A program made the translations under genes and the position numbers. Shown here piece after piece: positions 6,567 to 47,029 of a stretch of 64,000 bases of DNA. Source of the stretch: Methylocystis sp. SC2. GTDB taxonomy: Bacteria; Pseudomonadota; Alphaproteobacteria; Rhizobiales; Beijerinckiaceae. The stretch spans positions 1,334,501 through 1,398,500 of the forward strand of contig NC_018485.1 of the NCBI RefSeq assembly GCF_000304315.1. The letters run 5' to 3'. Every line of letters begins with the position of its first letter. Positions within the stretch are counted from its first letter, which is position 1. Below the pieces are notes generated by a model, which did no database searches, had not been told where the DNA came from, and saw nothing but the letters and a program-made list of their open reading frames with translations.

Positions 6567-6776
6567 TCACTTCCCGTCGACGGTTTTGGCGTCGACGATT
6601 TTCACGAGATGCGCCACCTTGGCGATCATCCCGCGCACGGCCGGCGTGTCTTCCAGCGCGCGGCGGCGGCCGATGCGCGTCAGGCCGAGGCCAAGAAGCG
6701 TACGGCGCTGCCGTTCGGGACGGCCGATCGGGCTGCCGATCTGTTCGACGACGATCTGCTGCGTGCTCTTCGTCAT
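6567..6776 (-). CDS. rpmD: 50S ribosomal protein L30
   Basis: 69 residues with the L30 core [20 protein letters not shown] and [13 protein letters not shown]. The short bacterial form is complete. An AGGAGACGACCC ribosome binding site precedes the ATG. Order rpsE-rpmD-rplO as in other bacteria. Confidence 0.97.
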
Positions 6777-6787
6777 GGGTCGTCTCC

Positions 6788-7360
6788 TTACGCGTCGACG
6801 GCGTCGGCGTCGACGCCTTGACGGCGCGACTGCAGCACCGAAACTTTAAGCGAGCGGCGCGCCGCGACCGAGCGCGGCGAATCTTCGCGGCCGAGCGCAT
6901 CGAAGGTCGCGCGGATCATGTTGTAGGGATTGGACGACCCCTGGCTCTTCGCCACGACGTCATGCATGCCCAGCGTTTCGAAAATCGCGCGCATGGGACC
7001 GCCGGCGATGATTCCGGTGCCCGCCGGCGCCGCGCGCAGGATGACGCGGCCCGCGCCATGGCGCCCATGAACGTCATGATGCAGCGTGCGGCCTTCGCGC
7101 AGCGGCACGCGGATCAACGCGCGCTTGGCCGCTTCCGTCGCCTTGCGGATCGCCTCAGGCACTTCGCGCGCCTTGCCGTGTCCATAGCCGACGCGGCCCT
7201 TCTGGTCGCCGACGACGACGAGCGCGGCGAAGCCGAAACGCCGGCCGCCCTTCACCACCTTCGCGACGCGATTGATGTGGACCAGACGATCCACAAATTC
7301 GCCGTCGCGATCGTCACGATCCCGATCGCGGCCGCGACCGCCTTCTCCTTCACGCGCCAT
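6788..7360 (-). CDS. rpsE: 30S ribosomal protein S5
   Basis: S5 shapes decoding accuracy at the mRNA entry site. The start [17 protein letters not shown] at ATG 7360 (190 residues) is chosen because a GGAAG site lies just upstream. A GTG at 7375 would add five residues but lacks a binding site. The N-terminus is a charged Arg/Asp/Gly-rich segment before the conserved [20 protein letters not shown] and [20 protein letters not shown] motifs. The gap to rplR upstream (7361-7499) contains short GC inverted repeats but no gene. Confidence 0.96.
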
Positions 7361-7499
7361 TGTCTCTTCCGTCACTTACGCGGCGTGATGCGCCGCTCGC
7401 TTCCTTCACTGCCGACCCATTCGGATCGACGCCCGGCGCATCTGCGCCGGCACGCATTCCGCGCGAGAAGCGCCCGCCCTCAACGGCGCGCGCCCCCTG

Positions 7500-7862
7500 T
7501 TAGAACTCCAGACCGCCCTCGCGGGCGCCGTCGGCCAGCGCCTTGACGCGCCCGTGATACATGTATGCGCCGCGGTCGAAAACGACCTCCTTGACGCCCT
7601 TGGCGACGGCGCGCTCCGCGAGCAGCTTGCCGACGACCTTCGCCGCCTCGACGTCCGCGCCGGTCTTCAGACCCTCGCGGTTCGCCTTCTCGAGCGAAGA
7701 GGCGGCGACGACCGTCGCGCCCTTTTCGTCGTCGATAATCTGCGCGTAGATCTGCTTGGACGAGCGAAACACCGAAAGGCGCAACCGCCCCTTGGCGCGT
7801 TCACGGATCGCCCGGCGCACCCGCGCCTTTCGACGCTGTTCGACTTTGACATCCCTGGCCAT
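7500..7862 (-). CDS. rplR: 50S ribosomal protein L18
   Basis: 120 residues. Basic N-terminus [20 protein letters not shown], then [20 protein letters not shown] and the C-terminal [26 protein letters not shown] that is diagnostic of L18, the 5S rRNA-binding protein. It follows rplF after nine bases. Confidence 0.98.
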
Positions 7863-7871
7863 GGCGGGTCC

Positions 7872-8405
7872 TTACTTCTTCTTGCCTTCCTTGCGGAAGA
7901 TGAATTCATTGGCGTATTTGACGCCCTTCCCCTTATAGGGCTCGGGCGGGCGCAGGGCGCGGATCTCGGCGGCGACCTGGCCGACCTGGCGTCGATCCAT
8001 GCCGCTGACGCTGATTTCCGTCGGCTTCGGCGTCGCGATCGCGATGCCGGCCGGAATCGGATAGCTCACGTCATGCGAATAGCCGAGCGCGAGCTGCAGC
8101 GTTTTTCCCTGCACCGAGGCGCGATAGCCGACGCCGGTGATCTCGAGCTTCTTCTCAAAGCCGGTGGTCACGCCGACGACGATATTGTTGATCTGGGCGC
8201 GCGCCGTGCCCCACAGCGCGCGGGCGCGCTTGGTTTCATTGCGCGGGTCGACCGAGATGGCGTTGTCCTGCTGGACGACGGAAACGTCGTCGGGCGCCAG
8301 GAACTCCAGCTGGCCCTTCGCGCCCTTCACCTGCACGAGCTGACCGTCCACCTTGGCGGTGACGCCGGCGGGAATGACGACAGGCTTCTTGCCGATACGA
8401 GACAT
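7872..8405 (-). CDS. rplF: 50S ribosomal protein L6
   Basis: 177 residues from ATG 8405 ([20 protein letters not shown]), the canonical start and length. The open frame continues upstream to 8453 but those residues do not belong to L6. The C-terminal signature [28 protein letters not shown] end is present. L6 binds near the GTPase-associated centre. Confidence 0.97.
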
Positions 8406-8437
8406 GGTTGCAATTCCTGTTTGATGAGGCGCAAGGT

Positions 8438-8836
8438 CTAGAAGACCTTGCACAGCACCTCGCCGCCGACATTATTCTCGCGCGCCGCGTGATCGGCCAT
8501 GACGCCCTTCGGGGTCGACACGATGGTGACGCCGAGGCCATTCGCCACGCGCGGCACTGCGTCAACCGCCGCATAGACGCGGCGGCCCGGCCGCGACACG
8601 CGTTCGATCTGCTTGATGACCGGTTCGCCGTCGAAATATTTCAGTTCGATCTCGAACTCGGTCCGGCCATTGCCGAAGTCGGTGCTGCTATAGCCGCGGA
8701 TATAGCCCTCTTCCTTCAGCACGTCGAGCACATGCGCGCGCAGCTTCGAGCCCGGAGAGGACACCTTGTCCTTACGGCGCATCTGCGCGTTGCGGATGCG
8801 GGTGAGGAGATCGCCCAATGGATCGTTGATCGCCAT
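8438..8836 (-). CDS. rpsH: 30S ribosomal protein S8
   Basis: 132 residues: [20 protein letters not shown] at the start, and the C-terminal [29 protein letters not shown], which matches the S8 signature STPKGVM. S8 organises the central domain of 16S rRNA and, in enterics, is the translational repressor of the spc operon. Confidence 0.98.
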
Positions 8837-8846
8837 CTGCGTCTCC

Positions 8847-9152
8847 TTACCAGCTGGACTTCACGAGGCCGGGCACCAGGCCGCGGGACCCCAACTCGCG
8901 CAGCGCAATGCGCGACATTTTCAGCTTGCGATAAAAGCCGCGCGGACGGCCCGACACTTCGCAGCGGTTGCGCACGCGAACCGGCGCCGAATTGCGCGGG
9001 AGCTCAGCAAGCTTCAGACGCGCCTCGAACTGCTCTTCGACGCTCAGCGTCTTGTCGTTCGCGACCGCCTTCAGCCGCGCGCGCCGCCCGGCGTAGGACT
9101 TCACGAGCCTTCGCTTCCGCTTGTTGTTCTCAATCGCGCTTTTCTTCGCCAT
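8847..9152 (-). CDS. rpsN: 30S ribosomal protein S14
   Basis: 101 residues, the long zinc-free form of S14 typical of Proteobacteria (no CxxC pairs). Conserved C-terminal [34 protein letters not shown]. It lies between rplE and rpsH. Confidence 0.98.
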
Positions 9153-9199
9153 TACCAGTTTCGCCTTTCAGTATCCGCGTTTGAGGAGCCGTTACGCCC

Positions 9200-9913
9200 T
9201 CACTGCCGGAACGGGAAATTGAACGCCTTCAGCAAGGCGCGCGCCTCTTCGTCGGTCTTGGCCGTCGTGCAGACGATCACGTCCATGCCCAGGATCGACT
9301 CGGCCTTGTCGTAGTCGATTTCGGGGAACACGATGTGCTCCTTGATGCCGAGCGCATAATTCCCGCGTCCGTCGAACGACTTCGGATTCAATCCGCGAAA
9401 GTCGCGCACGCGCGGCAGCGCCACGGTGATCAGACGATCAAGGAACTCATACATCCGCGTCTTGCGCAGCGTCACCTTGGCGCCGATCGGCATGTTCTCC
9501 CGCAGCTTGAAGGTCGAGATCGCCTTGCGCGCGCGGGTGACGACCGGCTTCTGGCCGGCGATGAGGCCAAGGTCGCTCGCCGCCGACGTCGCCTTCTTGC
9601 TGTCGTTGACGGATTCGCCGACGCCCATGTTGAGCACGATCTTCTCGATCGTCGGCACTTCGAGCGCGTTCTTATAGCCGAACTGCTTCTGCAGCGTCTC
9701 GCGCACGACCTCTTCATAATGCTTCCGCATGCGCGGCACATAAGCGGCGTCCATGGCGACCGCAGCCGCGTCATCGCCGGATTTGGCCGGCTTTTCCTTG
9801 GCCGCAGGCTTTTCGGCCGATTTCGCGGCGGCCTTCTTCGGCTCCGCGCCTTCGGCGGCGGGCTTTTGAGCCTTGGCGGGCTTTTCGGCCTTGGGCTTCT
9901 TTTCCTCAGCCAT
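9200..9913 (-). CDS. rplE: 50S ribosomal protein L5 with long Lys/Ala/Pro-rich N-terminal extension
   Basis: The L5 core begins near residue 54 ([20 protein letters not shown]) and runs to the end, with the conserved [32 protein letters not shown] and [15 protein letters not shown] segments. Core length is the usual ~185 residues. In front of it are about 53 extra residues made almost only of Lys, Ala, Pro and Glu. The ATG at 9913 overlaps the rplX stop by eight bases. An internal ATG (M at about residue 51, before [10 protein letters not shown]) would give the standard protein, so the extension depends on the upstream start being used. Confidence 0.95.
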
Positions 9914-10223
9914 CGATCAATTCTCCGGAACGCTTGGCGACGCGGACCTTGCGGCCGTCGTCGAGAATCTTGAATCCAACGCGCGTCGCCTTGCCGTCCT
10001 TGGGATCGGCGACCGCCAGATTCGACAGATCGATCGGCGCGGCCTTGTTGATGATGCCGGCTTCGCGATCCTTGGTCTGACGCTGATGGCGCTTGACGAT
10101 GTTGACGCCGTCGACGACGGCGCGGCCTTCGGCGGGGATCACGCGCAGCACTTCGCCGCTGCGGCCCTTGTCGCGGCCGGCGAGAACGACGACTTTGTCG
10201 CCCTTCTTGATCTTGGCGGCCAT
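9906..10223 (-). CDS. rplX: 50S ribosomal protein L24
   Basis: 105 residues from ATG 10223 ([20 protein letters not shown]), a KOW-domain protein that initiates large-subunit assembly. The ATG shares one base with the rplN stop (TAATG), and the stop overlaps the rplE start by eight bases, so the three genes are translationally coupled. The open frame extends much further upstream, but that part is antisense-type shadow of rplN. Confidence 0.97.
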
Positions 10224-10591
10224 TACAGAACCTCCGGGGCGAGCGAGATGATCTTCATGTGGTTCTTGGCGCGCAGCTCGCGCGGCACCGGCCCGAATAT
10301 GCGGGTGCCGATCGGCTCCTTCTGATTGTTGATCAGCACCGCGGCGTTCGAATCGAAACGGATCACTGAGCCGTCGGAACGCTTGATGTCCTTCGCGGTG
10401 CGAACGACCACGGCCTTCAGCACGTCGCCCTTCTTCACGCGGCCGCGCGGAATCGCCTCCTTGATCGACACGACAATAATGTCGCCGACGCCGGCGTATT
10501 TGCGCTTGGAGCCGCCCAGCACCTTGATGCACATCACGCGGCGCGCGCCGGAGTTGTCGGCGACGTCGAGATTGGTTTGCATCTGAATCAT
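10223..10591 (-). CDS. rplN: 50S ribosomal protein L14
   Basis: 122 residues starting [20 protein letters not shown], the canonical L14 start, and ending [23 protein letters not shown]. It forms an intersubunit bridge. It follows rpsQ after an 84-base gap. Confidence 0.98.
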
Positions 10592-10675
10592 GGCTTACCC
10601 GCCTTTCGTTCCGGTCTGGTTTCGGCAAGCCCACTTTGGACCCGCCGACTTCGTCCGGACAGTTCGTTCCACCGA

Positions 10676-10918
10676 CTACGCCTCGGCCGTCGCTTCGACG
10701 ACCCGCCAGCGCTTCAATTTCGAGATCGGCGCGGTCTCTTCGATCGTCACCGAATCGCCCACCTTGAACGCGCCGTTCTCGTCATGGGCGTGATAGTTCT
10801 TCGTGCGGCGCACCGTCTTCTGGAACAGCGGGTGGGTGAAGCGACGCTCGACCTTCACCACCACGGTCTTGTTCTGCTTGTCGCTGACGACGACGCCCTG
10901 GAGAATTCGCTTCGGCAT
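10676..10918 (-). CDS. rpsQ: 30S ribosomal protein S17
   Basis: 80 residues: [20 protein letters not shown], the OB-fold core [27 protein letters not shown], and the [17 protein letters not shown] end. Six bases separate it from rpmC. Confidence 0.98.
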
Positions 10919-10924
10919 GGCGCT

Positions 10925-11137
10925 TTAACCTTGCTGTTCCGCGCGCTTTTGCGCGGCGATGGTTTTGGCGCGGGCGATGTCGCGACGAACGACGCGCACG
11001 CGTGAGGTGTTCTCGAGCTGGCCGGTCGCCCGTTGGAAGCGCAGATTGAACTGCTCCTTCTTGAGCTTCAGCACTTCGTCATTGAGCTGATCTTCGGTCA
11101 TCGCCTTGATATCGGAGAGGCGCTGTTTGGATTTCAT
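10925..11137 (-). CDS. rpmC: 50S ribosomal protein L29
   Basis: 70 residues of helical L29 ([20 protein letters not shown]), part of the polypeptide exit-tunnel rim. I use ATG 11137, six bases after the AAGGGGAAC site. A GTG codon directly before it (11140) would add one residue. It begins just past the rplP stop. Confidence 0.96.
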
Positions 11138-11147
11138 CACGTTCCCC

Positions 11148-11561
11148 TTATTCGGCGATGCGTTCGATGAAGCGCGTCTTGATCGGCAGCTTCGCCGCGG
11201 CGAGCGTCAGGGCCTCGCGCGCGATGGGCGCCGGGACGCCGTCGATCTCGAACATGATGCGGCCGGGCGCAACGCGCACGGCCCAGAATTCCGGCGCGCC
11301 CTTGCCCTTGCCCATACGCACTTCGGTCGGCTTCTTGGAGACCGGCACGTCCGGGAAGATGCGGATCCACACGCGGCCGGCGCGCTTCATATGGCGCGTC
11401 ATGGCGCGGCGCGCGGCCTCGATCTGGCGCGCGGTGATGCGCTCCGGCTCCAGCGCCTTAAGGCCGAACTGACCGAAGTTCAGCGAAAAGCCCGCCTTGG
11501 AGGCGCCACGGATGCGGCCCTTGAAGGCCTTGCGGAACTTGGTGCGTTTGGGTTGCAGCAT
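11148..11561 (-). CDS. rplP: 50S ribosomal protein L16
   Basis: 137 residues: [20 protein letters not shown] start, [30 protein letters not shown] core with the conserved arginine that bacteria may hydroxylate, and [14 protein letters not shown] end. L16 organises the A-site region of the large subunit. Confidence 0.98.
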
Positions 11562-11585
11562 GATTGCGCTCTTTAATCTTGTTCG

Positions 11586-12335
11586 TTACGCCGCGTCGCG
11601 CGGTTCGCGGTGCTCGCGACGGCGGCGCTCGCCGCCGCGGTCGCGATCGCCATGATCGCCGCCGGACGCCTGTTCGGCCGCCTTCTTGTCCTGCGCCATC
11701 GGATCATGCTCAAGGATTTCGCCCTTGAAGATCCAGACCTTGATGCCGCAAGCGCCATAGGCTGTGTGGGCGGTCGCCGTGCCGTAATCGACGTCGGCGC
11801 GCAGCGTGTGCAGCGGCACGCGTCCTTCGCGATACCATTCGAGACGGGCGATTTCGGCGCCGCCGAGACGGCCCGAACAATTGATGCGAATGCCCTGCGC
11901 GCCGAGCCGAATGGCCGACTGCACGGCGCGCTTCATCGCGCGGCGGAAGGCGACGCGACGCTCCAGCTGCTGCGCGATCGACTCGGCGACGAGCGCGGCC
12001 TCGGTTTCGGGCTTGCGCACTTCGACGATGTTGATGACGACTTCGCTGCCGGTGAGCTTGCCCACGAGCTTGCGGATCTTGTCGATGTCCGCGCCCTTCT
12101 TGCCGATGACGACGCCGGGCCGCGCCGAATAGATCGTCACGCGGCACTTCTTGTGCGGGCGCTCGATGACGATCTTCGACACCGCCGCCTGCTTCAAGGT
12201 TTTCGACACGGTTTCGCGGATCGCCATGTCCTCGTGCAGGAGCTTGGCGTATTCGCCCTTGCTGGCGAACCAGCGCGAATCCCAGGTGCGGTTGACGCCC
12301 AGTCGCAGCCCGATCGGATTAACCTTCTGACCCAT
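11586..12335 (-). CDS. rpsC: 30S ribosomal protein S3
   Basis: 249 residues: [20 protein letters not shown] start, KH domain with [17 protein letters not shown], and the C-terminal S3 domain ([31 protein letters not shown]). A charged tail rich in Gly, Asp and Arg follows residue 215. S3 lines the mRNA entry tunnel and has helicase activity with S4 and S5. Confidence 0.98.
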
Positions 12336-38573: not shown

Positions 38574-39125
38574 TCAAAGCTGCGCTTCAGGCGCCCGCCT
38601 GAGGCCGAAGCGCGCAGCGAGCGCGTCGATGTCAACCGTCGCACGGCGCTTGTCATCCGATTCCAGCAGGAGGCGCAACCCCATGCCGCGCAGCATGTCG
38701 ATAAAGGCGATGATATCGGGGTCGTCGGCGGTCCGTCCGAAGAGCGGCGCGAGCTGCTCGGCCACGCCGCGGGCGTGGGCGGCGAGCGTTGCGCGAATTT
38801 CCGCTTGGTCGCTCGCCTGCGCCACGACGCTTAAGAAGAAGCGCATCCTGTTGCGCTCGAACATGAGCGCGCGCACCGCTTCGACAGGATCGACGTCGCC
38901 GCCGATCGCACCGCGCTTGGGCTTATGCGCCTGAGCATGCGACGCTTCGAGCGTCGCGGCGAGCAAATCCGTCTTGCGTGGAAAATAATAGGTCAAATGC
39001 GACTGCCGCAGTCCGGCCGCGGCGGCGACGCGGGTTTGGGTCAGCGCGGAGACGCCTTCCTTCCTCAAGATTTTCAACGCGGCGTCCAGAATGCGCTGAC
39101 GCGCGCTTTTTTCGACCATCGCCAT
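38574..39125 (-). CDS. TetR/AcrR-family transcriptional regulator
   Basis: 183 residues. N-terminal helix-turn-helix: RQRILDAALKILRKEGVSAL, then TQTRVAAAAGLRQSHLTYYF with the YYFPRKTDLL end typical of TetR. The ligand domain is helical (RMRFFLSVVAQASDQAEIRA) and gives no hint of ligand. The gene is divergent from the copper-uptake-type genes, and a palindrome TTGGTA-N3-TACCAA lies in the 132-base gap (39209-39223), the normal place for a TetR operator. It is therefore the prime candidate regulator of the 39.2-47.0 kb locus. This is inference. Confidence 0.9.
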   Translation of the reverse strand: MAMVEKSARQRILDAALKILRKEGVSALTQTRVAAAAGLRQSHLTYYFPRKTDLLAATLEASHAQAHKPKRGAIGGDVDPVEAVRALMFERNRMRFFLSVVAQASDQAEIRATLAAHARGVAEQLAPLFGRTADDPDIIAFIDMLRGMGLRLLLESDDKRRATVDIDALAARFGLRRAPEAQL

Positions 39126-39208
39126 AAGCGTTCATTCAAACCTTCGCCGCGCCAGCGTCCTATCAAAAAAAACGCGCCGCGGAAACGCCTCTGACGCTTG
39201 CGCTATAT

Positions 39209-39223
39209 TTGGTAATATACCAA
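39209..39223. promoter_or_regulatory. Candidate operator 1: TTGGTA-N3-TACCAA
   Basis: Perfect 6-bp inverted repeat with central ATA. It overlaps a possible -10 box (TAATAT, 39213-39218) 16 bases from CTGACG (39191-39196), so binding would block transcription of the gene at 39258. On the minus strand it lies 84 bases before the TetR start. Confidence 0.7.
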
Positions 39224-39257
39224 TCTGGGTCGGCCACGCCGGCGTTGGAGAGGACTG

Positions 39258-39707
39258 ATGAGATTTTTTCTGATTTTGACGTTTAGCGCGGCGGCGTGCC
39301 TGAGCGCGCGCGCCGACGACGGATCCGAGGCGGCGCGCCGCCTGCTTTTCGAAACATTCGACAAGCCCGAAACGCGCCTTTTCGTGGATGCTGTCGTCGT
39401 TGCGGGCGACTCCGCCGTCGCTGACTGGCGTCAGGGCGAACTCGGCGGCCGGGCGTTTCTGACGCGCAAGGGCGAGGCGTGGAGCATCGCGCTTTGCGCC
39501 GGCGACGCCCTAAAGGACCGCGCCACGCTTGAAAAGCTCGGCGTTTCGAAAGCGAACGCCGAGGCGCTTGCAAGGCGGCTGGCGGCCGAAGAGAAGCGGC
39601 TCTCGCCCGAGGTCGTCGAGCGTTTCTCCCGATTTGACGGCATGGCCGCCGTCGAGGCGGATGGAAGCCATTCGCCGTTCGATCCCCATCACAAGCCTAT
39701 TCCCTGA
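39258..39707 (+). CDS. Secreted protein resembling copper uptake system-associated proteins
   Basis: 149 residues. Signal peptide MRFFLILTFSAAACLSARAD, then a small domain: LLFETFDKPETRLFVDAVVV, GDSAVADWRQGELGGRAFLT, WSIALCAGDALKD. The C-terminus ends in HSPFDPHHKPIP, with His residues that could bind metal. The combination of FDKPE, ADWxQGxxGGRAxL and LCAGDAL is what I recall for proteins annotated copper uptake system-associated, which accompany TonB receptors in copper-scavenging loci such as pcuABCDE of Bradyrhizobium. GGAGAGG precedes the ATG. It is directly downstream of candidate operator 1. Copper is inferred and not shown. Confidence 0.75.
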   Translation: MRFFLILTFSAAACLSARADDGSEAARRLLFETFDKPETRLFVDAVVVAGDSAVADWRQGELGGRAFLTRKGEAWSIALCAGDALKDRATLEKLGVSKANAEALARRLAAEEKRLSPEVVERFSRFDGMAAVEADGSHSPFDPHHKPIP

Positions 39708-39787
39708 CTGTCGCGCACTGTTGCGCCGAAGCAACAGCGACCGAAAATGCGCCCGTCAGGCCAGCCGAAGCGTTGCCAAGACGTCAT

Positions 39788-39802
39788 TTGGTAGATTACC
39801 AA
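39788..39802. promoter_or_regulatory. Candidate operator 2: TTGGTA-N3-TACCAA
   Basis: Perfect repeat of the site at 39209-39223, with centre GAT in place of ATA. It lies 73 bases before the next start codon at 39876. The same 12 specific bases in the same 6-3-6 layout 579 bases apart, both upstream of genes in the same pathway-like cluster, make chance unlikely. Confidence 0.7.
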
Positions 39803-39875: not shown

Positions 39876-40256
39876 ATGGCGGCCCTTGCGAGAACGCCTC
39901 GCTCGATGATTTTGCGGCGCATCGGGGCCCTTTGCATCGCGCTGCTTGTCGCGCTCGCGGCGGCGTCATCCTCGGCGCCGGCGCATCCCGCCCGTCCCGA
40001 GACGACCGCGCATTGTCTGGACACGCCTCAGCCGGCGCCGACGAAGCATCCGTGTGGCGGCGAGCAATGCTGCTTGCTGTGCGGTCACAGCCAGAAAGAC
40101 CTGGTTTTTCCTGTTTTTGAGCCCGCTTCGGCCGCCATCGCCTATGCGCCGCCACGCGCCGCAAGCCGCGCGTTCCGCGCCGTTCGGGCGCCGCCTGTAA
40201 AAGGCGTCCGCGCACATTCGCGCGCGGCACCGCGCGCGCCGCCCCGCTTCTCCTGA
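39876..40256 (+). CDS. Small secreted or membrane Cys/His-rich protein, DUF2946-like
   Basis: 126 residues. The N-terminal signal or anchor segment (MILRRIGALCIALLVALAAA) ends in SSAPAHP. Then come HCLDTPQPAP, KHPCGGEQCCLLCGHSQ with five cysteines and three histidines. The rest is Ala/Pro/Arg-rich. This matches small DUF2946-type proteins with a central CxxC-like metal motif found beside copper genes. The start at 39876 may instead be ATG 39906. It ends 55 bases before the TonB receptor, suggesting one transcript. Confidence 0.65.
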   Translation: MAALARTPRSMILRRIGALCIALLVALAAASSSAPAHPARPETTAHCLDTPQPAPTKHPCGGEQCCLLCGHSQKDLVFPVFEPASAAIAYAPPRAASRAFRAVRAPPVKGVRAHSRAAPRAPPRFS

Positions 40257-42757: not shown

Positions 42758-43471
42758 TTGTCGATTCACGCGACGCCGGAAAATCTCGCCGCTACGCGGA
42801 CAAGCGCGCCGATGCTGCGCGTCGAGGGGCTGCGAAAATCCTATCCGACGCCGCAGGGCCGCACTCCCGTGCTGCGCGGCGTGGACTTCACGCTCGCCGC
42901 CGGCGCCAGCCTGGCGCTGACCGGCGAATCCGGCAGCGGCAAGAGCACGCTCCTGCATCTGGTCGGCGCGCTCGACGACGCCGACAGCGGCGAAATCATT
43001 CTCGACGGCGTCGCGCTGACGCGGCTGTCGGAACATGCGCGGGCCGCCATCCGGCGCGAAAGGATCGGCGTCGTCTTTCAGCAGTTCAATTTGATTCCGA
43101 GTCTGACCGTTTGCGAAAACCTGGGCTTCCAGGCGCGACTGGCGGGGCGATACGATCCGGCGTGGCAGGAAGAGCTCACGGCGCGTCTTGGTCTTGCGAC
43201 GCTCGCCGCCCGCTATCCTGAGGAACTGTCCGGCGGACAGCAGCAGCGCGTCGCCATCGGCCGCGCGCTGGCCGTGCGCCCGAGGCTTCTGCTCGCTGAC
43301 GAACCCACCGGCAATCTCGACGAAGCGACCGGCGACGCCGTCATGGCGCTCGCCCTCGACCTCGTCGCCGCGACCGGCTGCGCCTTTCTTATGGCGACGC
43401 ACAGCGAACGGCTTGCGGCGCGGCTGCAACGGCGCGTGCGGCTGGAAACCGGTCTTCTGGCGACGCAATGA
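42758..43471 (+). CDS. ABC transporter ATPase, LolD/MacB (AttE-like) type
   Basis: 237 residues. Walker A GESGSGKSTL, Q-loop GVVFQQFNLIPSLTV, signature LSGGQQQRVAIGRAL, Walker B RLLLADEPTGNLD and an H-loop ATHSERLAARLQ. This subfamily pairs with FtsX-type permeases. The start is TTG 42758 after AAGGAT. ATG 42811 (MLRVEGLRKSYPTPQG) is an alternative that keeps the whole ATPase domain. The stop overlaps the permease start (ATGA), so they form one unit. It lies 82 bases after the TonB receptor. Confidence 0.93.
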   Translation: MSIHATPENLAATRTSAPMLRVEGLRKSYPTPQGRTPVLRGVDFTLAAGASLALTGESGSGKSTLLHLVGALDDADSGEIILDGVALTRLSEHARAAIRRERIGVVFQQFNLIPSLTVCENLGFQARLAGRYDPAWQEELTARLGLATLAARYPEELSGGQQQRVAIGRALAVRPRLLLADEPTGNLDEATGDAVMALALDLVAATGCAFLMATHSERLAARLQRRVRLETGLLATQ

Positions 43472-45936
43472 GAGAGATGCTCTGGACGCTGGCCGCGCTG
43501 ATCAGCCACTGGCGCCGACGGCCGGGCAATCTCGCGACGCTCGCGCTCGGCCTCGCCATCGCCACGGCGCTGTGGAGCGGCGTGCAGGCGCTGAACGCTC
43601 AGGCGCGCAACAGCTACGACGCCGCGGCGAACGCGATTTCGGGCGGCGGCGCGCGCACGCTCGTCGCCGCGCGCGGCGGGCTGTTCGATCAAGACCTGTT
43701 CGTGAAGCTGCGCCGCGCCGGCGTCGACGTCTCGCCGGTGCTGGAAGGCGCAGTCCGAATCGGAGAGAAGAATATTCGGATCGTCGGCGTCGAGCCGGTG
43801 TCGCTGCCGCGCGCTTCGCCAATCGCGCATAGGCGAAGCCGCGCTGACGTTCTGGAAGAATTCTTCTCCGGCCCGGGCCGCGGCTTTGCCGCCCCGCAGA
43901 CCCTGCGCCGGCTGGATCTTCTAGAGGGCGCGCAGCCGCGAACCGAGCGCGGTCGGCTGCTGCCGCCGCTTGCGGCGCTCCCCGAAGCGCCGCCCGGCGC
44001 AATCATCGTCGACATCGGCGTCGCCCAGCGCCTGCTCGATCGCCCCGGAAAACTCTCGCGCCTCGTCATCGCCGACGAGGAGGCGTTCGACAAGGCGCGG
44101 CTTAAGCCGATCGCCGGCGATGCGCTGCGGCTCGTCGCGCCGAACGATGACAGCGATCTGGGCCGTCTGACCGACAGTTTTCACCTCAATCTCACCGCCT
44201 TCGGCTTTCTTGCGTTCCTGGTCGGGCTGTTCATCGTGCACGCCGCTTACGGCCTCGCCTTCGAACAGCGACTGCCGACCCTGCGCACCTTGCGCGCGCT
44301 CGGAGTTGGGCCGCCCCATCTCATCGCGGCGATGGCCTGCGAAATCGCGATCCTGACGCTCTTGGCGGGCGGCGCGGGCGTCCTCGGCGGTCACGCGATC
44401 GCGCAGGCGCTTCTGCCGGATGTCGCAAAAAGTCTCGAGAGCCTCTACGGCGCGCAAATCTCCGATCGCCTTGCGCTCGATGCGCGTTGGTGGCTCTCCG
44501 GCCTCGCGATGGCGGGCGCCGGCGCGGCGCTCGCGGCGGCGAGCGGCCTGACGAAAGCACTGCGGCTGCCGGCGCTGTCATTCGCGCGTCCCATGGCCTG
44601 GCGCGGCGCGCATCACCGCTATTTGCGACGGCAGGCCGCGCTCGCGGCGCTCGCCCTTGTCGCGGCGGCTTGCGCCTATAGCTTCGGCGAGGGGCTCGCG
44701 TCAGGCTTCGCGATCATCGGCTTGGCGCTTCTCGCCGCCGCTCTCATTCTGCCGGTCGGCCTCGCCGGCGCCCTGGCGCTCGGCGAGCATTTCGCGCGCC
44801 GGCCGCTCGCCCGCTGGTTCTTCGCCGACGGACGCCAGGAAATTTCCGGTCTTTCGCTTGCGCTGATGGCGCTGCTGATCGCGCTTGCGACCAATATCGG
44901 CGTCGGCGGCATGGTCGAGGGCTTTCGCCAGACCTTCGATCGCTGGCTCGACGCGCGCCTCGTCGCCGAGATCTATTTCGAAGCGGCGACGCCCGCCGAT
45001 GCGCGCGACATCGAGGCGTGGGCGCGCACCCAGCCCGACATCGCCGCGATCCTCCCCGTCTGGCGCGCGAAGACGCGCGTCGGCGGATGGCCCGTCGATG
45101 TCGTCGGCATGACGCCTCACCAAACCTATACGGCGCATTTTCCGCTGATCGACGCCGCGCCGGACGCATGGACGGCGCTGCACGCCCAGGACGCCGTCCT
45201 CGTCAGCGAACAATTGGCGCGCCGTCTTGGTCTGACGGTCGACGAAACCCTCGACATTCCGACGTCGGGGCAAGACTGGCCCGCGCGCATCGTCGGGGTC
45301 TTTCCGGATTACGGCAATCCGAAAGGCCAGCTGCGCATTGATCACGAAAAGCTGAAGCGCTCTTTCGACGACGCCTCCGGCGTGCATTACAGCCTGCGCG
45401 TCGATCCGGGCGCCACGGCGCGCGTCATCGACACCATGCAGCAGCGCTTTGGCGGAAAAATCGCGCGCATCGTCGATCAGGGCGAAGTCAAAGCCCTGTC
45501 GACGGAAATCTTCGAACGCACATTCGCCGTGACGACGGCGTTGAACACGCTGACGCTGATCGTATCCGGCGTCGCGCTCTTCGCCAGTCTGCTGACGCTC
45601 AGCGACATGCGGCGCGCCCGCATCGCGCCGGTCTGGGCGCTGGGCGCGACGCGGCGAAAGCTGGCGGCGCTGGAAATGGCGCGGGTTTTGGGGTTCGCCG
45701 CCGGCGCCGCGGCTTTCGCGATCCCTCTTGGGCTGTTCATGACCTGGTGCCTCGTGGCCATCATCAATGTCGCCGCCTTCGGATGGCGACTTCCATTTCA
45801 TATGTTTCCGGCGCAATGGCTTGTGGTTTCCTGCATCGCGCTCGGGGCCGCATTCTTTGCGGCGCTTATTCCCTTCGCGAGGCTTGCGCGCGTTTCGCCG
45901 ACCGAACTGCTTAGGGTCTTCTCCAATGAACGCTAA
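43468..45936 (+). CDS. FtsX-type ABC permease, double domain (AttFG-like)
   Basis: 822 residues. N-terminal TM (RPGNLATLALGLAIATALWS), a periplasmic MacB-like domain, then FtsX helices (FGFLAFLVGLFIVHAAYGLA; LIAAMACEIAILTLLAGGAG). A second set follows from about residue 390, with a second extracytoplasmic domain (LVAEIYFEAATPADARDIEA) and final helices to VSPTELLRVFSNER. It is one chain where some relatives have two genes (attF and attG). Permeases of this kind extract lipoproteins or small hydrophobic molecules from the inner membrane instead of importing them. The 3' end overlaps the next gene by 11 bases. Confidence 0.9.
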   Translation: MREMLWTLAALISHWRRRPGNLATLALGLAIATALWSGVQALNAQARNSYDAAANAISGGGARTLVAARGGLFDQDLFVKLRRAGVDVSPVLEGAVRIGEKNIRIVGVEPVSLPRASPIAHRRSRADVLEEFFSGPGRGFAAPQTLRRLDLLEGAQPRTERGRLLPPLAALPEAPPGAIIVDIGVAQRLLDRPGKLSRLVIADEEAFDKARLKPIAGDALRLVAPNDDSDLGRLTDSFHLNLTAFGFLAFLVGLFIVHAAYGLAFEQRLPTLRTLRALGVGPPHLIAAMACEIAILTLLAGGAGVLGGHAIAQALLPDVAKSLESLYGAQISDRLALDARWWLSGLAMAGAGAALAAASGLTKALRLPALSFARPMAWRGAHHRYLRRQAALAALALVAAACAYSFGEGLASGFAIIGLALLAAALILPVGLAGALALGEHFARRPLARWFFADGRQEISGLSLALMALLIALATNIGVGGMVEGFRQTFDRWLDARLVAEIYFEAATPADARDIEAWARTQPDIAAILPVWRAKTRVGGWPVDVVGMTPHQTYTAHFPLIDAAPDAWTALHAQDAVLVSEQLARRLGLTVDETLDIPTSGQDWPARIVGVFPDYGNPKGQLRIDHEKLKRSFDDASGVHYSLRVDPGATARVIDTMQQRFGGKIARIVDQGEVKALSTEIFERTFAVTTALNTLTLIVSGVALFASLLTLSDMRRARIAPVWALGATRRKLAALEMARVLGFAAGAAAFAIPLGLFMTWCLVAIINVAAFGWRLPFHMFPAQWLVVSCIALGAAFFAALIPFARLARVSPTELLRVFSNER

Positions 45937-47029
45937 GGCCTCGAACGGTTCTCCCGAACGACGCTCGGCAATGTCGAGGCGATCGGCGCTGCTTCTCGCG
46001 CTGTCGTCGAGCGGCGCGTTGGCGCAAGGCTTCGGCGGTCTTGGCGCGACGGCGCCGGGGTTCGCGATTCCCCGACCCGGAACGCCGCTCGTCTTCCCGA
46101 AAGACCATGGCGCGCATCCCGATTTTCGCACCGAATGGTGGTACGTCACCGCAAATCTAAACGGCGACGACGGCGCCTCGTACGGCGTCCAATGGACGCT
46201 CTTTCGCTTTGCACTGGAGCCGAACGCGGCGCGGGCCGGCTGGGACGACCGCACCATCTGGATGGGCCATGCGGCGGCGACGAGCGCCAGCGACCATCTC
46301 TTCGCGCAGAAATTCGCCCGCGGCGGAATTGGCCAGGCGGGCGTCGCGGCTTCGCCCTTTCGCGCCTTCATCGACGACTGGGCTTTGGAAACGCGCGACA
46401 GTTCTGCGGATTCGGGAATAGAGCGGCTGCGCGTTTCGGCGGGCGACAGGAATTTCGCCTATGCGCTCGATCTCACAGCGACGGAGCCGGTCGTATTGCA
46501 AGGCGAAGGCGGCTACAGCCGCAAGTCCGAGGCCGGCCAGGCCTCCTATTATTACAGCCAGCCGTTCTTTACGGCGGAAGGCGCGTGGTCGATGAACGGA
46601 CGCAAAATCCAGGTCTCCGGCCGCGCCTGGATGGATCGCGAATGGTCGAGTCAGCCGCTAAGCCCTGATCAAAAAGGCTGGGACTGGTTTTCGCTGCACC
46701 TCGAGGGCGGCGCCAAGCTGATGCTGTATCGCATGCGCAGCGTCGAAGCGCCGTCGTTTCTCTTTGGAAATTGGATCGACGCCGACGGCGCGACGTCGAT
46801 GCTCGCGCGCGGCGACATCGTCATCGAGCCTCTGGAAACGACACGCATCGCCGATCGCGACGTGCCGATTCGCTGGCGCGTGAAGATCAAGAGCCGCGGG
46901 GTCGACGTCGAGACGCGGCCGCTCAATCCGAGAAGCTGGGTGGGAACCGATTTTTCCTATTGGGAAGGTCCGATCCGCATGACCGGTTCGCACAGCGGCG
47001 AAGGCTATCTCGAAATGACCGGCTATTGA
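45926..47029 (+). CDS. Secreted AttH/CrtC-like (lipocalin-fold) protein
   Basis: 367 residues from ATG 45926. An ATG at 45971 (MSRRSALLLALSSSGALAQG) would leave a cleaner signal peptide. Motifs: HPDFRTEWWYVTANLNGDDG, ASYGVQWTLFRFA, YSRKSEAGQASYYYSQPFFT, WMDREWSSQPLSPDQKGWDW and GSHSGEGYLEMTGY, which are those of AttH/CrtC (predicted secreted hydrolase or carotenoid 1,2-hydratase family, two lipocalin-like domains). Agrobacterium AttEFGH has the same order of ATPase, permeases and AttH. No carotenoid genes are nearby, so a carotenoid role is unlikely. Its ligand is unknown. Confidence 0.85.
   Translation: MNAKASNGSPERRSAMSRRSALLLALSSSGALAQGFGGLGATAPGFAIPRPGTPLVFPKDHGAHPDFRTEWWYVTANLNGDDGASYGVQWTLFRFALEPNAARAGWDDRTIWMGHAAATSASDHLFAQKFARGGIGQAGVAASPFRAFIDDWALETRDSSADSGIERLRVSAGDRNFAYALDLTATEPVVLQGEGGYSRKSEAGQASYYYSQPFFTAEGAWSMNGRKIQVSGRAWMDREWSSQPLSPDQKGWDWFSLHLEGGAKLMLYRMRSVEAPSFLFGNWIDADGATSMLARGDIVIEPLETTRIADRDVPIRWRVKIKSRGVDVETRPLNPRSWVGTDFSYWEGPIRMTGSHSGEGYLEMTGY

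Follow-up and report, generated by a model that had tools for sequence, protein, structure and literature searches.

Two short palindromes of the form TTGGTA-N3-TACCAA lie beside a divergent tetR gene in Methylocystis sp. SC2, and the locus raises the question of whether the TetR protein acts on them, in which direction and in answer to what signal. The window, by which we mean the whole 64,000-nucleotide stretch of DNA analysed, contains both of the perfect copies described in an earlier note (Table 1), and the statement made there that it holds no third remains true even when up to two mismatches are allowed. Dinucleotide shuffles of the window gave a mean of 0.07 matches, and none of 100 gave two. 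When the search proposed in that note was extended to the whole genome (3,773,444 bases, one contig), no scattered copies appeared: 3.77 Mb hold the two perfect copies and one more with a single mismatch, which falls within a 474-aa ORF. The motif is short and other genomes hold occasional perfect copies, as they would if the palindromes had arisen by chance; however, only about 0.04 perfect copies per genome are expected from the base composition of the window, against two found with their centres 579 bp apart, and the palindromes are conserved in relatives. On the genome count and the conservation, we rejected a chance origin, which we regard as extremely improbable. Alignment of 12 window-type sequences shows operator 2 without a mismatch in every one; operator 1 is intact in 10 and deviates at one base in L028 and L029. 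Conservation between tetR and site 1 is not limited to the operator, because further blocks are conserved there in the same 12 sequences.

Table 1. Features of the tetR locus, in window coordinates.
Feature	Position	Strand	Remarks
tetR, TetR-family regulator, 183 aa	38574..39125	-	alternative ATG at 39119
Predicted operator 1, TTGGTAATATACCAA	39209..39223	.	between divergent tetR and the gene at 39258
CuA, copper uptake system-associated protein (NF033672), 149 aa	39258..39707	+	124.1 bits, cut-off 50
Predicted operator 2, TTGGTAGATTACCAA	39788..39802	.	5' of CruR-like ORF and TonB receptor
CruR-like (DUF2946-type) ORF, 126 aa	39876..40256	+	hydrophobic N-terminus, CLLC, C-terminal RAPPRFS
TonB-dependent receptor, 787 aa	40312..42675	+	PF00593, PF07715; 55 nt 3' of CruR-like ORF
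ABC transporter ATP-binding protein	42758..43471	+	PF00005; presumed same transcript
MacB/FtsX-type permease	43468..45936	+	PF12704, PF02687; presumed same transcript
CrtC/lipocalin-type protein	45767..47029	+	PF07143, PF17186; start uncertain, listed ORF overlaps permease gene

Site 1 faces tetR on one side, at 83 or 89 nt depending on which of two possible ATGs is used, and on the other precedes the NF033672 gene by 34 nt; site 2 lies 73 nt from the ORF at 39876. The assignment of the regulator is based on an N-terminal helix-turn-helix (TetR_N, PF00440, 37.2 bits against a cut-off of 24) and on an AlphaFold2 model that is all-helical, has the TetR-family fold with a C-terminal ligand domain (mean pLDDT 80.7) and finds TetR-family proteins as its top Foldseek matches. 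The nearest solved folds include EbrR (3hta, 24-26% identity) and RcdA (7aco, 19%), which share the TetR fold with TM-scores of about 0.6; their entry titles name imidazole, proflavin, Tris and TMAO as ligands and carry no tie to this operator. The gene at 39258 justifies the description of the locus as a metal-uptake-type cluster, its product matching NF033672 well above the cut-off. In the class draw, NF033672 was found in 1 of 289 genomes, the window's own, and no wider context was gained. The TonB-dependent receptor does not belong to the copper-receptor model TIGR01778, against which it scores 18.9 bits, far under the cut-off of 472.45; its best matches among solved structures are YncD (91.6 bits) and PqqU (90.6 bits).

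A scan of the region for sigma-70-type promoters found no match, hence none overlapping the operators. A TATAAT occurs within TTGGTATAATACCAA of L032, L033, L034 and L056; by eye it has no convincing -35 partner, and we claim no sigma-70 promoter there. We also note, on the minus strand of the tetR leader between site 1 and tetR (window 39174-39188), a terminator-like stem with a T run after it; the A-rich block at the stem has changed little across the 12 aligned sequences. The stem could end or attenuate transcription toward tetR.

The association of this TetR with the palindrome was examined in named loci, the best 80 of 156 confirmed relatives, located by a contig scan with QSHLTYYF and TQ[PT][RK][VI]A[KA]AA. 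The recognition helix shared by the 80 is partly so by construction, because the scan used those patterns; positions 50, 51, 63, 94, 117 and 146 lie outside them. Among these best 80 of 156 loci, the site, with at most one mismatch, is present in 31/31 whose TetR scores at least 125 bits and in 0/49 below that score, a split chosen after the scores and motif matches were known. The named loci have no row between 114 and 125 bits; two TetRs from the order draw fall in this gap (tblastn 116 and 120 bits), and both have a four-base spacer. The retention of the site in relatives that keep tetR, a check that the earlier note had proposed, thus holds at every high-scoring locus, 25 of the 31 having at least one perfect copy, and a reversed-pattern control gave 0/31 and 0/49. 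Many of the rows are near-copies from Methylocystis, to which the nearest named relatives belong. Both sites are present in 11 of 13 Methylocystis-type loci. The other two, L034 and L035, have site 1; site 2 and the CruR-like ORF are missing, as is any full-length TonB match, L034 having a TonB remnant match of 168 nt (49% identity). Each of these two shares its assembly with a second tetR locus (L034 with L039, L035 with L041): L034 and L035 have the NF033672 gene and site 1, and L039 and L041 each combine tetR and a site with one mismatch with a CruR-like ORF and a TonB receptor.

Two draws of genomes gave a broader view. In the family draw, the TetR (E up to 1e-15) was found in 7 of 149 genomes and a perfect site in 8, with 6 having both, so that a perfect site is present in 6/7 TetR genomes against 2/142 others (Fisher p 1.4e-8, relatedness ignored). 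In the seventh TetR genome, G114, the site has one mismatch and is placed between tetR and a CruR-like/TonB pair; in G135, where TetR identity is 87%, both sites are retained. All four TetR genomes of genus g42 (probably Methylosinus) retain a perfect copy in the stretch that separates tetR from the NF033672 gene, and a copy with one or two mismatches lies 5' of what is likely to be the CruR-like start. G039 and G050, which have a site but no TetR match, carry it next to or inside other ORFs. The order draw comprised 297 genomes, of which 20 had a perfect site and at least 5 a TetR profile match, the two coinciding only in the window's genome; this TetR search scored no more than 11 candidates in any genome, and TetRs may have been missed. 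Of the other four TetR matches, that of G554 has a one-mismatch three-base site and three have the four-base spacer. The site alone is not diagnostic, because 19/292 order-draw genomes without a TetR match also have a perfect copy; on its own, a perfect copy at some other place in the genome is weak evidence, and it is the position beside an operon that carries weight. Five draw genomes (G042, G128, G135, G554 and G623) are not independent of the named loci, since they are apparently the genomes of L046, L042, L037, L050 and L057, respectively.

The lower-scoring TetRs have a related palindrome. At the 49 such loci among the best 80 of 156, TTGGTA-N4-TACCAA occurs within 300 bp of tetR in 40 (0-1 mismatch) or 45 (0-2), against 0 and 7, respectively, for the three-base spacer; as controls, a zero-base spacer matched in 7 of the 49 rows and a reversed four-base pattern in 2. 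Conversely, the four-base site was found in 2/31 high-scoring loci (L043 and L045), in each with one mismatch and either at the tetR start or a short way ahead of it. In the sister TetR genes (L059-L106) the four-base palindrome lies just 5' of tetR, and two copies (0-1 mismatch) are found 19-22 bp apart in 12 of the 49 sister rows among the best 80 of 156. A tree of 84 TetRs needs 2 changes of the three-base label, compared with a mean of 25.9 after shuffling; its well-supported branches force only one change, and some branches are long. A single change is seen in 1% of 200 bootstrap trees, a low share explained by the three-base L048, which sits near Stappia-like rows. From these comparisons, spacer length appears broadly to follow the TetR tree. 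At positions 50-51 the three-base group usually has RK and the 49 others (best 80 of 156) usually have TR, but these residues alone do not set the spacing, because KK occurs both in L048 and in Stappia-like four-base rows.

It could be argued that another regulator binds the palindromes and that tetR is a bystander, as the perfect sites in genomes with no TetR match (2/142 in the family draw, 19/292 in the order draw) might suggest. We consider this very unlikely, since site presence and spacing track TetR sequence over the best 80 of 156 loci, the site follows the TetR tree with the few label changes given above, and the site persists when the neighbouring genes change. The comparison leaves the link between TetR and palindrome well supported. 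A search for a published operator of identical sequence ranked a KstR2 paper first, but the motif in it, as given in the source text available, differs, and we rejected it; the open-licence PubMed Central literature, in the text accessible there, connected no TetR with this site or with a CruR-type leader.

The change of neighbouring genes is seen in Xanthobacter, Metarhizobium, Reyranella, Hyphomicrobium, Ensifer, Nitratireductor and others, where the site heads all or parts of a TonB-MFS-methyltransferase-tetR gene set, some of these sets including a saccharopine-dehydrogenase-like gene. These operons of other Alphaproteobacteria resemble the window in having the same TetR group and the same operator at the head. 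In the matched gene sets as a whole, the operator comes first and tetR is at the far end or divergent; in the TonB-MFS-methyltransferase operons it is at the far end and not divergent as in the window. Similar sets with the four-base site 5' of the TonB gene were found in the order draw (G576, G620 and G623, the last being the L057 genome). Bauldia L040 and Devosia L058 differ, as their divergent genes encode ABC substrate-binding proteins. No CruR-like ORF was found by the motif filter between the site and the first gene of the TonB-MFS-methyltransferase operons, and NF033672 had no match inside these gene sets except in Burkholderia paludis. At that locus (L044), the site is followed by a methyltransferase gene, a hydrolase/NF033672 ORF and tetR. 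The hydrolase and NF033672 genes are separate neighbours in Methylosinus-type loci, and we link the copper-type and TonB-MFS-methyltransferase operon types because L044 fuses these genes. The fused gene (L044 4565-5965) is a single 466-aa ORF with alpha/beta hydrolase and NF033672 domains and no stop inside. At L042 4565-5287, on a contig shared with L020, the alpha/beta hydrolase stretch adjoining the NF033672 gene has one in-frame stop. In Hyphomicrobium L050, a CXXC/RAPP ORF lies about 5 kb beyond tetR with a di-haem cytochrome c peroxidase gene between them, and the same region (6635-11660) contains a 946-aa ORF with a weak Plug match and a CRP-like ORF.

The operons of this other type bear on the direction of control. 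TetR proteins mostly repress. The first gene has its first ATG or GTG 10, 13, 17, 22, 23, 24, 25, 25 and 55 nt after the end of the site in 9 of 12 other-operon loci, and such short gaps favour repression over activation. The earlier note had proposed an autoregulated repressor or activator of the uptake system; the comparison supports the regulatory link, and the position of the site favours the repressor. An activator that binds the palindromes, allowed for in that note, could work at the three loci with longer gaps (96 or 186 nt in L053, 81 or 126 in L051, 178 in L055), since 81-186 nt would permit activation. At the other nine, eight of which have the site within 25 nt of the start, it is too close for a typical activator, and on this ground we disfavour an activator role as improbable. 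Repression thus remains our reading for both sites of the window.

The earlier picture of site 2 as lying upstream of a gene of the cluster stands, and the gene directly after it, left unnamed there, is a CruR-like leader ORF. In Bordetella, CruR (DUF2946) is described as stalling translation at RAPP when copper is absent, so that the downstream TonB receptor is made, and as leading to Rho termination when copper is present (PMC9426467). The Bordetella pertussis pair CruR-CrtA (bp2923-bfrG; PMC9426467, PMC12914433), as described in the portions of these papers available, resembles the window in having a small ORF with CXXC and a C-terminal RAPP directly 5' of a TonB-dependent transporter gene. 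The window ORF has both motifs, CLLC being its CXXC and RAPPRFS its C-terminus, with the TonB gene 55 nt downstream compared with 162 in Bordetella. It differs in the predicted TetR operator upstream, the word TetR being absent from the main text of PMC9426467, and in the gap from CXXC to RAPP, which is 50 residues in the window; the spacing reported for CruR/DUF2946 ORFs is 45, within one or two residues (PMC9426467). In a motif scan that covered gaps of 38-60, the gap is 50 in 13 window-type rows, 48 in Methylosinus-type rows and 47-51 over all printed rows beside a tetR, so it departs throughout from the expected 45 +/- 1-2. The window protein gave no match to PF11162 at E up to 10; among its counterparts, L024 scores 31 bits (above the cut-off of 23.7), L023 19.4 (below it) and L019 7.6, and L021 has no match. 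We therefore call the window ORF CruR-like and not a member of the family, as PF11162 is unmatched and the gap is 50 and not about 45. Methylosinus-type counterparts end in SSRAPPLFS, SSRAPPRFS or SSRAPPAFS. At L023 5281-8210 (G114), on the far side of tetR, there is another CXXC/RAPP ORF with an 821-aa ORF after it. Because site 2 precedes the CruR-like ORF and the TonB receptor, expression of the receptor is probably controlled twice in succession, first by TetR at the promoter and then by a nascent peptide that senses copper.

The identity of the signal that TetR would answer is a harder matter. Among the best 80 of 156 loci, three residues separate the three-base TetR group from the 49 others: H63 (30/31 vs 4/49), H117 (31/31 vs 3/49) and R146 (31/31 vs 2/49); M94 shows a similar preference (26/31 vs 3/49). 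In the AlphaFold2 model, H63, H117 and R146 sit in helices 51-66, 108-129 and 136-154, which belong to the region where TetR proteins usually bind their ligand. The near-restriction of these three residues to the group hints at a shared ligand site. One reading is that TetR itself senses copper, with H63, H117 and perhaps M94 binding the metal to keep the protein on the operators or take it off them. The genes of the window locus look copper-related, the two histidines are nearly specific to the group and M94 is enriched in it, and a copper-responsive TetR-type repressor, ComR of E. coli, has been described (PMC10141476). Against this, the window TetR has no cysteine, the CruR-like ORF is already predicted to sense copper for the receptor unit, and the same TetR group also heads TonB-MFS-methyltransferase(-dehydrogenase) operons in which we saw no copper-labelled gene. 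Direct copper sensing by TetR is conceivable but, in our judgement, rather unlikely. The link to copper-type uptake made in the earlier note is supported, the window having a copper-labelled gene (NF033672); copper is at most a candidate signal for TetR, since elsewhere the TetR/site pair heads operons without such a label. As these other gene sets lack copper-labelled genes, we favour a cargo ligand over free copper, and our preferred guess is a transported metal complex or an organic ligand. The available accounts of ComR (YcfQ) present it as a copper-inducible repressor of comC, which gives it the link to copper and the outer membrane in common with the window; they describe it as controlling comC and not its own expression (PMC10141476, PMC7558416), whereas in the window one site faces tetR itself, and the predicted operators, unlike the arrangement of ComR and comC, precede the NF033672 gene and the TonB receptor unit.

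We infer with good confidence that a TetR dimer represses through both sites, that a ligand lifts this repression and that a CruR-like gate stands before the receptor. The divergently encoded TetR would bind TTGGTA-N3-TACCAA as a dimer at the two places and would repress three promoters, those of tetR, the NF033672 gene and the CruR-like/TonB unit, possibly with the ABC genes behind this unit as well. The ligand that lifts repression would be the cargo of the uptake system, a metal complex or an organic molecule, more likely than the free copper ion. The second gate would be the nascent CruR-like peptide, predicted to read copper through its CXXC and, as with Bordetella CruR, to let the receptor be made only at low copper. 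More speculatively, and with clear reservations, we suggest that a TetR lifted by cargo, either a copper chelate or the ligand of one, and a copper-reading peptide in series would confine synthesis of the copper-type receptor to conditions in which cargo is present and copper is short, and that the choice of a three- or a four-base spacer between otherwise unchanged half-sites may keep sister regulons apart.

Bacterial copper acquisition is described as poorly characterised (PMC12914433), and copper is reported to decide which methane-oxidising enzyme some methanotrophs make (PMC6423226). A defined operator with its TetR offers a direct handle on a copper-uptake-type locus, and the three- and four-base spacers between the same half-sites in sister TetR groups are a tractable case of operator divergence. 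Taken with the CruR-like leader, the locus would be a case of control at transcription initiation and by a nascent peptide in series.
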